Below, in pieces: positions 42,160-46,342 of a DNA stretch of 64,000 nt. Both the position numbers and the translations under genes were made by a program. This DNA is from Prosthecobacter algae. GTDB lineage: Bacteria > Verrucomicrobiota > Verrucomicrobiia > Verrucomicrobiales > Verrucomicrobiaceae. Each line of letters opens with the position of its first letter. Within the stretch, counting starts at the first letter, position 1. The DNA lies in the NCBI RefSeq assembly GCF_039542385.1, contig NZ_BAABIA010000003.1, positions 248,001-312,000 of the forward strand, read 5' to 3'. The notes under the pieces were generated by a model that had not been told where the DNA came from, did no database searches, and was given only the letters and a program-made list of their open reading frames with translations.

Positions 42160-43764
42160 ATGATGCGACGAATCCTCCTCACTTGCGCCGGTTTGCTGGC
42201 CACTTCTCTTTCGGCTGCTCCGAAAGGACCGCCGAACATCCTTTTCCTCTTTTCGGACGATCTCGCCTCCCAGGCTATCTCCAGTTATGGCGACGAGCGC
42301 AAGCTGCTTGAGACCCCGGGGATAGATCGCCTCGCCAAAGAGGGCATTCGGTTTAATCGCTGCCTGGTTACAAACTCCATCTGCGGCCCCATGCGCGCCG
42401 TGATCCAGACGGGCAAATATTCGCACCTGAACGGCTTTCACAACAACAGCAACAGCCGCTTCGATGGCAACCAGCAGACCTTCCCTAAGCTGCTGCAAAA
42501 AGGCGGTTATACCACCGCGGTCATTGGCAAATGGCATCTGATGACCGACCCTCAGGGGTTCGACTATTGGAACGTCCTTCCCGGCCAGGGTATTTACTAC
42601 AACCCGCCCATGATCGAAAACGGCCAGGAGGTGAAACACACCGGTTACGTCACTGACATCATCACCGAGCAGGGCCTCAAGTGGCTGGAAGGTCGCGACA
42701 AGACCAAGCCTTTCATGCTGATGCTTCAGCACAAGGCACCTCATCGGGAATGGGAACCGGCTCTGCGCCACCTGGACCACGACAAGGGCCGTGTTTATCC
42801 AGAGCCCGCCACCTTGTTTGACAATTTCGAAGGTCGCAGCAAGGCCGTTAGCGATCACGACATGGGGCTGGACCGCACCATCACCGAGCGTGACATGAAG
42901 CTCGTCGCACCGGCCTCCCTGAATGAGGAGCAGCGCAAAGCCTGGAATGCGTATTACGACCCGATTAACAAAAAGTATAACGAAGCACCGCCCACTGGAA
43001 AAGACCTCATCAAATGGCGCTACCAGCGTTACATGCATGATTACCTGGGATGCGTGAAAGGGGTGGACGAAAGCATCGCCACGGTTCTCGATTACCTGGA
43101 CAAATCCGGCCTCGCCGAAAATACCGTCGTCATTTGCAGCAGTGACCAGGGTTTCTACCTCGGAGAGCACGGCTGGTTTGACAAACGCTGGATCTTTGAG
43201 GAATCCCTCACCACCCCCTTCCTGGTCCGCTGGCCAGGAGTGGCCAAGGCGGGCAGCACCAATGGCAGCATCGTTTCCTTGCTGGACCTTGCCCAGACCT
43301 TCCTGGACATCGCGGGTCAGCCGCAACCTGCGGACATGCAGGGCCATTCCCTGGTGCCGCTTTTCAAAGGCGAGACGCCTGCGGACTGGCGCAAAAGCTT
43401 CTACTACCACTACTACGAGTTCCCCGTGCCCCATCGCGTGCGCCCACACTATGGCGTGATCACCGACCGCTACAAACTCATCCATTACTATGCCCCAGAC
43501 GTGGATGACTGGGAGCTGCTGGACCGTCAAAAGGACCCTCTAGAAACCCAGAGTTTCTACAAAGACCCAGCTTATGCAGACACTGTCAAAGAGCTCAAAA
43601 CCGAGCTCTCACGCTTGCAAACCGAGGTCAAAGAAATCCTGCCTCCCCCACGCCTGACGCATGGCAACAAAGCCTTCGATGGCGAGGTGAATCCCCCAGT
43701 CCCCCAGAATGCCAAAGGCATGGGCAAGGGCAAAGGAAAGGGCAAAAAGAAACAGGCCGAGTGA
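42160..43764 (+). CDS. Secreted sulfatase with CGPMR active-site motif
   Basis: 534 residues, S1-type sulfatase family. Signal peptide MMRRILLTCAGLLATSLSA. Metal-binding FLFSDDL at 30-36. The active-site stretch is SICGPMRAVIQTGKY: Cys75 would be changed to formylglycine, but the fourth position, usually Ser or Ala, is Met. Further marks: GKWHL, APHREWEP, SSDQGFYLGEHGWFDKR. It hydrolyses sulfate esters, probably on glycans, after export. The C-terminal tail is Lys/Gly-rich. It is followed by a long imperfect hairpin. The formylglycine-generating enzyme is not in the window. Confidence 0.92.
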   Translation: MMRRILLTCAGLLATSLSAAPKGPPNILFLFSDDLASQAISSYGDERKLLETPGIDRLAKEGIRFNRCLVTNSICGPMRAVIQTGKYSHLNGFHNNSNSRFDGNQQTFPKLLQKGGYTTAVIGKWHLMTDPQGFDYWNVLPGQGIYYNPPMIENGQEVKHTGYVTDIITEQGLKWLEGRDKTKPFMLMLQHKAPHREWEPALRHLDHDKGRVYPEPATLFDNFEGRSKAVSDHDMGLDRTITERDMKLVAPASLNEEQRKAWNAYYDPINKKYNEAPPTGKDLIKWRYQRYMHDYLGCVKGVDESIATVLDYLDKSGLAENTVVICSSDQGFYLGEHGWFDKRWIFEESLTTPFLVRWPGVAKAGSTNGSIVSLLDLAQTFLDIAGQPQPADMQGHSLVPLFKGETPADWRKSFYYHYYEFPVPHRVRPHYGVITDRYKLIHYYAPDVDDWELLDRQKDPLETQSFYKDPAYADTVKELKTELSRLQTEVKEILPPPRLTHGNKAFDGEVNPPVPQNAKGMGKGKGKGKKKQAE

Positions 43765-43773
43765 TCTCCTGAT

Positions 43774-43880
43774 GGAACAACCACGGAAGACGCTGAAGAC
43801 ACGGAATGTATTCATGAACTGATTTTATGAATTCATTTCCTCTGCCTTCCGTGTGCTCCGTACTTTCCGTGGTTGTTTTC
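43774..43880. repeat. Long imperfect inverted repeat, CCACGGA family, copy 1
   Basis: Left arm 43774-43806 (begins GGAACAACCACGGAAGACGC) and right arm 43847-43880 (begins TTCCGTGTGCTCCG) pair at about two thirds of positions. The right arm is inside the next gene and encodes part of its signal peptide. It is related to the copy at 44631-44715. Confidence 0.7.
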
Positions 43881-44630
43881 CTTCTGAGCACTGCTGCAAA
43901 CGCGTCTGCACCCTTCAAACCCGTAGCCTGCGAAGGGGCTTACCCACGTCACCTCCAAGGCATCTGTACCGATGGTAAAGAGGCCATCTACTGGTCTTGG
44001 ACAGATGCGATCGTGAAGACGGATCTGGAGGGCAAGATTCTCAAAAAAGTCGCCGCGCCCAGTCACCAGGGAGATCTCTGCCATCACGACGGCAAGGTCT
44101 ATGTCGCGGTCAATTTGGGCAAGTTCAACCAACCCGCTGGCGCAGCCGACTCATGGGTCTTCGTCTTCGATGGCGAAACCCTGGCGGAACTCTCTCGTCA
44201 TCCCGTGCCAGAGCTTGTTCATGGAGCAGGAGGCATGGCCTATCGTGAAGGTCGTTTTATCCTCATCGGCGGCCTGCCCCCGGGAACAGATGAAAACTAC
44301 GTGTATGAATACGACGCGAAGTTCCAGTTCATCCAGCGTCACACGCTGACCAGCGGCTACACCCTCATGGGCATTCAAACGGTGGAGTATGCCGACGGTT
44401 CCTGGTGGTTCGGTTGTTATGGCAAACCAGCCGTTTTGCTTCGTGCCGATGAAAACTTCCGCTTCACGGGCAAGTGGGAGTTCAATGCTTCCGTCGGCCT
44501 CGCCCGCATTGGGCCTAACCAGTTTTTGATCGCCGAGAATAAATCCACAAAAGGCATCGGCAATACCGCCAAGGTTCGCCTTGCGCATGCCGATCTTGAT
44601 AAGGGCCTCGTTCTCGACACTCAGCCCTGA
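43827..44630 (+). CDS. Small secreted propeller-like hypothetical protein
   Basis: 267 residues; the family was not recognised by name. Signal peptide MNSFPLPSVCSVLSVVVFLL with an ANA-type cleavage site. Its SVCSVLSVVVF part is encoded by the right arm of a repeat hairpin. The mature protein has a six-fold run of short beta-blade-like units (YPRHLQGICTDGKEAIYWSW, SHQGDLCHHDGKVYVAVN, VHGAGGMAYREGRFILIG), suggesting a small beta-propeller. It lies between two sulfatase genes on the same strand and may act with them on a glycan; that is inference. Confidence 0.75.
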   Translation: MNSFPLPSVCSVLSVVVFLLSTAANASAPFKPVACEGAYPRHLQGICTDGKEAIYWSWTDAIVKTDLEGKILKKVAAPSHQGDLCHHDGKVYVAVNLGKFNQPAGAADSWVFVFDGETLAELSRHPVPELVHGAGGMAYREGRFILIGGLPPGTDENYVYEYDAKFQFIQRHTLTSGYTLMGIQTVEYADGSWWFGCYGKPAVLLRADENFRFTGKWEFNASVGLARIGPNQFLIAENKSTKGIGNTAKVRLAHADLDKGLVLDTQP

Positions 44631-44715
44631 GGAACAACCACGGAGGACACTGAACACACGGAAGGGGATGGCCAGGATTTGAAATTCCGTGTGTTCAGTG
44701 TTTTCCGTGGTTGCC
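44631..44715. repeat. Long near-perfect inverted repeat, CCACGGA family, copy 2
   Basis: The left arm 44631-44663 (begins GGAACAACCACGGAGGACAC) and right arm 44685-44715 (begins TTCCGTGTGTTCAGTG) pair with only about two mismatches over about 29 bases. A T run (CCCTTTTTT) follows, so it may also act as a terminator of the preceding gene. It lies directly before the second sulfatase gene. Confidence 0.8.
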
Positions 44716-44731: not shown

Positions 44732-46342
44732 ATGACCGCATCATTCAAAAAACTCACCTTCGCAGTTCTTGCCTTGGGCATGACGCTCGCAGCCTCGGCG
44801 GCGGACAAACCCAACTTCATTTTCATCCTCTGTGATGATCTGGGTTATGGAGATGTGAAGCATCTCAATCCTGAGGGTAAAATTGCCACGCCCAACATGG
44901 ACCGCATCGCCAAGGAAGGCATGACCTTCACCGATGCCCACACCCCTTCCAGCGTCTGCACCCCCACCCGCTACGGCACCCTCACAGGCCGCTACAACTG
45001 GCGTACCAAATTGCAAAAGGGCGTCCTGGGCGGACTCAGCCCGCACCTGATTGCCACGGATCGCATGACCGTGGCCTCCATGCTCAAAGGGCAGGGCTAC
45101 CACACCGCCATCATCGGCAAGTGGCATCTCGGCATGGATTGGAAGGTCAAAGATGGCCTGAACGTGGCGGAACTGAACATTGAATCCCCCCAGCAGACCT
45201 GGAGTGTGGATTTCACCCAGCCTACCACCCACGGGCCCAACAGCGTCGGGTTCGACCACTACTTCGGCATCAGCGCCTCCCTAGACATGGTGCCGTACTG
45301 CTTCATCGAAAATGACCGCGTCACTGCCCAGCCCACTGAGGATCGCGCCATCGAAATTGTTCAGGGAAAGACTGAAAAATACACCCGCAAGGGCCCTGCT
45401 GCCCCCGGTTTTACCGGCTACGAAGTCCTGCCCACATTCATTGACAAAGCCGTCGCCTACGTCGGCGAAAAATCCGCCGATGCGAAGTCAGGAAAACCCT
45501 TCTTCCTCTATCTACCCCTTGCCTCCCCGCACACCCCCATCCTGCCCAATCCTGAATGGCGGGGCAAAAGCGGCCTAAATCAATATGGCGACTTCGTGAT
45601 GGAAACCGATGCCGCCATTGGACGAGTCCTCAAAGCTCTGGATGACAATGGTCTGGCCGAGAACACCGTCATCGTCTTCACCAGCGACAATGGCTGCTCC
45701 CCAAGTGCCAATTATCCCGAACTGCTGGCCAAAGGCCACAACCCCAGCGCCAAACTGCGCGGCCATAAAGCCGACATCTATGATGGCGGCCACCGCGTGC
45801 CCTTCCTGGTCCGCTGGCCTGCCAAGGTGAAGCCCGGCCAGACAACCAGCCAGCTCACTTGCCTGACGGACTTTTTTGCCACCGCCGCCCACATCACTGG
45901 CGCAACTGCTCCGGAAACTGCCGCCGAAGACAGTTTCAGCTTCCTCCCGACCCTTTTGGGTGAAAGCGGCAAACCCGCCCGTGAATCCCTCGTCCATCAC
46001 AGCATCCAAGGTGTCTTCGCCATCCGCGAGGGTCCCTGGAAGCTCGCTCTCTGCCCAGGCTCCGGCGGCTGGAGCGAACCCCGCCCCGGCACCGAGCCCA
46101 AGGACTCGCCACACGTCCAGCTTTTCAATATGGAAGCCGATCTCGGCGAGCAGACCAACCTCGCCGCCCAGCACCCCGAAATCGTCACTCGCCTCACGAA
46201 GAGACTGGAAACCCTAGTCGCCAGCGGTCGCAGCACCCCTGGAGCCCCTCAAAACAACGACGTCCCCGTCGAAATCTGGAAAAAGCCCGAAGCGACGAAA
46301 AAAGGGGCCAAAAGCGGCAAGGCGAACAAGGGTAAGAAGTGA
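44732..46342 (+). CDS. Secreted sulfatase (arylsulfatase-like)
   Basis: 536 residues. Signal peptide MTASFKKLTFAVLALGMTLA. Metal site ILCDDLGYGD. Active-site stretch SVCTPTRYGTLTGRY: Cys76 to Arg80, a recognised form of the CxPxR signature. Further marks: GKWHLGMD, ASPHTPILPN, FTSDNGCSP and GHRVPFLVRWP. It should hydrolyse sulfate esters outside the cytoplasm after formylglycine formation. The tail is Lys/Gly-rich like that of the first sulfatase. The two sulfatases share clear family features but are not close copies. Confidence 0.95.
   Translation: MTASFKKLTFAVLALGMTLAASAADKPNFIFILCDDLGYGDVKHLNPEGKIATPNMDRIAKEGMTFTDAHTPSSVCTPTRYGTLTGRYNWRTKLQKGVLGGLSPHLIATDRMTVASMLKGQGYHTAIIGKWHLGMDWKVKDGLNVAELNIESPQQTWSVDFTQPTTHGPNSVGFDHYFGISASLDMVPYCFIENDRVTAQPTEDRAIEIVQGKTEKYTRKGPAAPGFTGYEVLPTFIDKAVAYVGEKSADAKSGKPFFLYLPLASPHTPILPNPEWRGKSGLNQYGDFVMETDAAIGRVLKALDDNGLAENTVIVFTSDNGCSPSANYPELLAKGHNPSAKLRGHKADIYDGGHRVPFLVRWPAKVKPGQTTSQLTCLTDFFATAAHITGATAPETAAEDSFSFLPTLLGESGKPARESLVHHSIQGVFAIREGPWKLALCPGSGGWSEPRPGTEPKDSPHVQLFNMEADLGEQTNLAAQHPEIVTRLTKRLETLVASGRSTPGAPQNNDVPVEIWKKPEATKKGAKSGKANKGKK

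Follow-up and report, generated by a model that had tools for sequence, protein, structure and literature searches.

We analyzed a window of 64,000 nucleotides from Prosthecobacter algae (G000:C3:248001-312000, where G000 denotes the source genome), in which a gene for a predicted exported protein lies between two sulfatase genes and is flanked on either side by an inverted repeat (Table 1). Hairpin 1 has 31-nt arms that are 77% complementary around a 40-nt loop, and hairpin 2 has 29-nt arms that are 93% complementary around a 21-nt loop. Compared between hairpins, the arms are 86-91% alike, in agreement with the preliminary description of this DNA, which had assigned both to one repeat family and had noted that hairpin 2 is nearly perfect and ends just before the second sulfatase. 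When folded as RNA, hairpin 1 reaches -43.3 kcal/mol (z = -7.2) and hairpin 2 -54.2 kcal/mol (z = -9.4), and 0 of 200 shuffles were as stable as either; Rfam gave no match. The motif CCACGGARGACACTGAA, allowing up to three mismatches, has three matches in the window, all of them in arms of these hairpins (0.31 expected).

Table 1. Features of the sulfatase-propeller-sulfatase locus (positions are those of the window)
Feature	Position	Strand	Remarks
Upstream sulfatase gene	42160..43764	+	534 aa; Sulfatase + SGSH_C
Hairpin 1, left (inward) arm = 5' leader of the enclosed gene	43776..43806	+	97% identical in G016
Hairpin 1, loop, holding start codon ATG 43827	43807..43846	+	
Hairpin 1, right (outward) arm, read as SVCSVLSVVV = signal-peptide h-region	43847..43877	+	
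Enclosed gene, 267 aa, signal peptide + beta-propeller, without Pfam family	43827..44630	+	
Predicted signal peptide MNSFPLPSVCSVLSVVVFLLSTAANA	43827..43904	+	cleavage site (after ANA or ASA) placed by eye
Hairpin 2, left arm	44635..44663	+	
Hairpin 2, loop, reverse-complemented in relative G016	44664..44684	+	19/21 inverted vs 6/21 direct
Hairpin 2, right arm	44685..44713	+	
Downstream sulfatase gene	44732..46342	+	536 aa

The right arm of hairpin 1 is part of the coding sequence: it supplies the last base of codon 7 and the whole of codons 8-17. The preliminary description had already recognized this arm as the core of the signal peptide, but had extended it about 3 nt too far, to 43880; residue F18 lies just beyond the arm. 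Since there is an in-frame stop upstream, ATG 43827 is the sole ATG ahead of the mature protein. Translation beginning downstream of the arm, named in the preliminary description as what would count against the idea, would leave the protein with no signal peptide; the only later start codon, GTG 43869, gives about 13 residues before the mature part. We judged the signal peptide from hydrophobicity, a predicted helix and homologues. In an AlphaFold2 model (pLDDT 84.7), the enclosed protein has a single N-terminal helix at residues 9-24 followed by a beta-propeller, whose best matches among solved structures are generic propellers; no family was found in Pfam. Two features weigh against an arm-encoded signal peptide: the n-region in G000 contains no Lys or Arg, and no clear Shine-Dalgarno sequence precedes ATG 43827. 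With that sequence lacking and the start codon in the loop of a -43 kcal/mol hairpin, the hairpin may also control initiation.

The enclosed gene is matched in 38 of the 68 genomes of the family (G000 counted in), and the closest of these matches record the history of the locus. In the protein tree, G000 with its closest relative G016 (90% identical) and G046 with its sister G017 fall into one group with G035. G016 has both hairpins and keeps the arm reading. G046 has relics of both arms of hairpin 1 and lacks hairpin 2; its right arm is one 9-nt unit short and yet codes for LSVVLVFLA. The left arm in G046 is split by an unrelated short insert, TCGCCGCGTCGCGGGACAGG (L027 ~1410-1450), which is absent from G000 and G016. 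The arm relic in G017 has decayed and is not significant when taken alone (p = 0.31). G035 shows the same synteny with neither hairpin and an unrelated signal peptide, MRFSFALLFTIALLGVTALSA, and more distant homologues carry still other signal peptides, MRLLLFVSVLIGLHGVRAAD being one. Between G035 and G000 the flanks are too diverged for a junction to be defined by target-site duplication or empty-site comparison. The states in G016, G046 and G035 and the signal peptides of the distant homologues indicate that hairpin 1 came first, taking the place of the n- and h-regions while sparing the c-region and the start of the mature protein, and that hairpin 2 arrived later, between the genes.

Since hairpins 1 and 2 date from separate acquisitions, the statement in the preliminary description that they bracket the gene holds for their positions alone. 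Its further suggestion, insertion of a gene cassette between repeats, which would be a movement like that of a composite transposon, would account for hairpins that frame exactly the enclosed gene. However, G035, G046 and G017 all hold the propeller gene between the same sulfatases without hairpin 2. The gene and its synteny are therefore older than the hairpins, and we reject the cassette reading, to which we give practically no credence.

A more serious alternative is that the overlap between repeat and gene is incidental, i.e., that a REP- or MITE-like hairpin, perhaps an RNA control or stability element, lies in an untranslated leader and the true start is downstream of the arm. The strong fold of hairpin 1 with the ATG in its loop is what one would expect in this case, as is the conservation between G000 and G016, which is higher in the 5' leader (95%) than in the coding sequence after the arm (89%). 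Against it, no downstream start leaves a signal peptide, the homologues bear signal peptides of other sequence, and the same arrangement is seen in nine other genes described below, some of which retain no hairpin. We thus consider an incidental overlap unlikely.

Hairpin 2 also differs in orientation between the two closest relatives. Over its whole length, arms included (44635-44713 versus L176 of G016), 73 of 79 positions are identical when one copy is reverse-complemented, versus 58 of 79 in direct alignment, and the difference is strongest in the loop (Table 1). Hairpin 2 is thus inverted in place between G000 and G016, which suggests flipping of the element by recombination or strand switching between its arms.

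The arms belong to a repeat family with a longer form. Family arms measure about 27-30 nt, and their consensus AACCACGGANNACACNGANNACACGGA consists of three 9-nt units (CCACGGANN, ACACNGANN and ACACGGA). Measured against the pattern AACCACNRA NNACACNRA NNACACNRA in inverted arms, both arms of hairpin 2 match exactly, the left arm of hairpin 1 is off by one base, and its right arm has diverged. The only other well-matched arms in G000 are at C2:676723-677276 (L001:1498-2052), where the same inverted arms frame a GxxExxY/PDDEXK_3 gene, a member of TIGR04256 (132 bits, cut-off 35) and of PF13366 (PDDEXK_3). This C2 element has a dihydrodipicolinate synthase/N-acetylneuraminate lyase-like gene on one side and a sialidase on the other. 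No such nuclease gene lies between the arms of either window hairpin, so the two can at most be short forms of the element, and we read them as putative short, gene-less forms of a dispersed GxxExxY element.

Across the family, we counted about 119 arms in 67 genomes, and a reversed-pattern control gave none. The repeats are mostly intergenic, and about half of all arms have no partner within 1 kb. An arm followed by ATG occurs in 43 of the 384 genomes of the class, and arms with ATG-Lys occur in genomes of many phyla. Starting instead from GxxExxY genes found independently of the arms, about 27 of 29 loci are flanked by inverted arms with an 8-9-nt period, as assessed by eye, with arm sequences that vary (ACCGCGGAG, ACCATGAAG, ACCACAGAG). 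A set of loci spread across the class (L385-L414) shows this variation from one GxxExxY locus to the next (GCGCGGAG, CATGAAG, CACAGAG), which is suggestive of nuclease and arms varying together. When arms were scored against their own locus and against others, 12 of the 29 loci exceeded the 95th percentile, but this is not a clean test because the arms of other loci also resemble each other. The little-known GxxExxY/PDDEXK_3 family thereby gains a context, as in the loci we read it is nearly always framed by arms, as expected of a mobile element. Literature searches on the repeat sequence, and on GxxExxY combined with inverted repeats, returned nothing relevant.

Two further repeat arrangements came to light. 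The CCACGGAAGATTCGG repeats on contigs C16-C20, which we considered as additional arms and then left aside, appear to be a different, larger mosaic repeat (TTTCAACCACGGAAGATTCGGAAGACACGGAAGGTGG ... GGAGCGGGACTTGCCAAGTCCCG ... ACAGGATTAACAGGAAGTGTGG) that is present in high copy, is concentrated on the small G000 contigs C16, C17, C18 and C20 (L010-L023), and has a CCACGGAAG unit in common with the arm family. In G019 (C65; L090 ~1400-1530), a complete family hairpin is read in frame within a long ORF that carries a DPACGSGAF methyltransferase-like motif.

The preliminary description had proposed co-option of the repeat family as a secretion signal and had asked whether other family hairpins overlap the 5' ends of secreted-protein genes; a second such case occurs in G000 itself. 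The arm adjoining the C2 GxxExxY gene is read in another frame and encodes the core of MLRKSFFLLPCVLCLPWLSLSASE, predicted to be the signal peptide of the sialidase (identified by a BNR domain on the G013 orthologue). In a comparison of 33 sialidase orthologues, the arm is present in 14, decayed in two of them, and the 19 without it carry ordinary signal peptides such as MKSLLCVLLLTAVQLQAADP; the sialidase tree forces at least three changes in the presence or absence of the arm. For both the propeller and the sialidase, then, homologues without the repeat have a different signal peptide, which together with the recurrence supports the co-option proposal. At the sialidase locus of G016, the GxxExxY body is gone and the far arm is reduced to a scrap, with the coding arm 26/27 intact.

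Arm-derived signal peptides are likewise predicted for a LamG protein (L085), a DUF7133 protein (L094), an isomerase/LamG protein (L109), four sulfatases with pairwise identities of only 30-46% (L304, L286, L271, L287) and a heparinase-like lyase (L274), bringing the number of unrelated exported-protein genes to ten with the window gene and the sialidase. We take the mature domains of these ten to be of exported kinds from established knowledge of the families; for the propeller and the sialidase, this also follows from the signal peptides of their homologues. L289 and L310 look like arm fusions, have no Pfam match and were left out of the ten. Also uncounted are GH95 (L185) and LolA (L324), which are ambiguous in that a hydrophobic stretch of their own follows the arm, and a PAS kinase (L177), whose natural start is probably after the arm.

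The fusions are confined to exported proteins as far as our survey reaches. None of the six genes with cytoplasmic Pfam domains that lie outward of arms (DEAD helicase, MoaE, DUF1990, EVE, RuvB and SAICAR synthetase) is fused, their starts being read as after the arm. Over all loci, 10 exported genes are fused and 3 are not, versus 0/6 for cytoplasmic genes (Fisher p = 0.003), and in the family survey alone the counts are 5 and 3 versus 0/6 (p = 0.03); we treat both figures as indicative, because the larger takes in loci that had been selected for an arm with ATG or ATG-Lys, and the starts in both were assigned by eye. Read outward, the arm is free of stops in all three frames, two of which are hydrophobic and rich in Cys, Leu, Val and Ser. 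All ten fused genes use one of these two (PCxLCxPW or SVxSVxSVV) and none the Arg-bearing FRVFRVFRG frame. If the frames were equal and the genes independent, this bias would have a probability of (2/3)^10 = 0.017. Maximum hydrophobicity is 2.1-2.9 for arm-derived peptides and 2.2-3.1 for the arm-free orthologues. Two apparent lines of support did not hold: hydrophobicity in every outward frame is equaled by 10% of base shuffles, and a lone arm at a signal peptide is nothing unusual, since solitary arms are common everywhere.

The contribution of base composition to the hydrophobic outward reading leaves room for the view that Cys/Leu-rich signal peptides resemble the arm by chance, or that the repeat family was born from DNA coding for signal peptides. 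However, the arms at fused genes match 23-27 of 27 specified bases, several adjoin partner arms or GxxExxY remnants, and copies of the repeat lie mainly between genes and occur in many phyla; we regard convergence as very improbable.

The reading that we hold with good confidence is that copies of the GxxExxY element have taken over the front of the signal peptides of exported proteins, repeatedly and in different genes and frames. An element copy would settle over the 5' end of a gene that already codes for an exported protein and supplant its n- and h-regions. Translation would then begin in the interior of the element and read out via the arm, as the h-region, into the old c-region and mature domain. 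Selection for export would retain the arm as the remaining element decays or is deleted, and the same replacement could happen again in other genes and frames. The sequences show which arm is read and in what frame, the recurrence, the differing signal peptides of arm-free orthologues, and a case in which the element body has gone with the arm retained; from these we infer mobility of the element, a driving role for the nuclease and a working arm-encoded peptide in Sec export.

Signal peptides evolve fast, and their sources are rarely visible. Here the donor can be identified, orthologues present the states before and after, and the event recurs, so the question of whether mobile palindromes build secretion signals becomes directly testable. 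A broader idea, to which we give slightly less than even odds, is that a dispersed nuclease-linked palindrome serves as a portable donor of signal peptides, whose outward arms could provide an export signal in either of two frames. On this view, exported enzymes such as sulfatases, sialidases and lyases would have had their N-termini rewritten by it repeatedly in Verrucomicrobia, perhaps in other phyla as well, and this may have aided the turnover or rescue of the secretome.

Several known systems share parts of this arrangement. The window hairpins have the terminal inverted repeats, the short length and the absence of a gene of their own that are expected of a MITE, and the nearest precedent, a single predicted one, is a MITE: in Yersinia, RU-2/YAPL supplies a portion of the signal peptide predicted for YPO1552, whose homologues have unrelated signals (Delihas 2007, PMC2759123; PMC2229807). 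As in that case, the signal peptide predicted for the enclosed gene includes repeat sequence read in frame, and repeat-free homologues carry another signal peptide. However, RU-2/YPO1552 is one predicted locus, in enterobacteria and with another repeat family, whereas here the arm is found in ten unrelated genes and mainly in two frames, some orthologues have it and others lack it, and the element body has been lost where the arm persists. The Rickettsia palindromic elements (RPE), which are palindromic repeats in frame inside protein-coding genes (PMC2229807), are a general precedent for a palindrome that is read in frame. They differ in sequence and host, and here a single outward arm serves as the predicted signal peptide; the whole in-frame hairpin at L090 is nearer to RPE. 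REP/REPIN sequences with RAYT (PMC2817692, PMC3116915) are likewise short dispersed palindromes, often paired and associated with one enzyme family, but RAYT is a tyrosine transposase, whereas the linked gene here is GxxExxY/PDDEXK_3 and the arms have an 8-9-nt period. With the TIGR04256/PF13366 PDDEXK_3 family, the likeness is that the C2 element of G000 encodes a member; our literature search found no paper linking this family to inverted arms. New in the present case are the repeat family, the long form with its nuclease gene, the number of unrelated genes, and the orthologue pairs showing replacement and then loss of the element.
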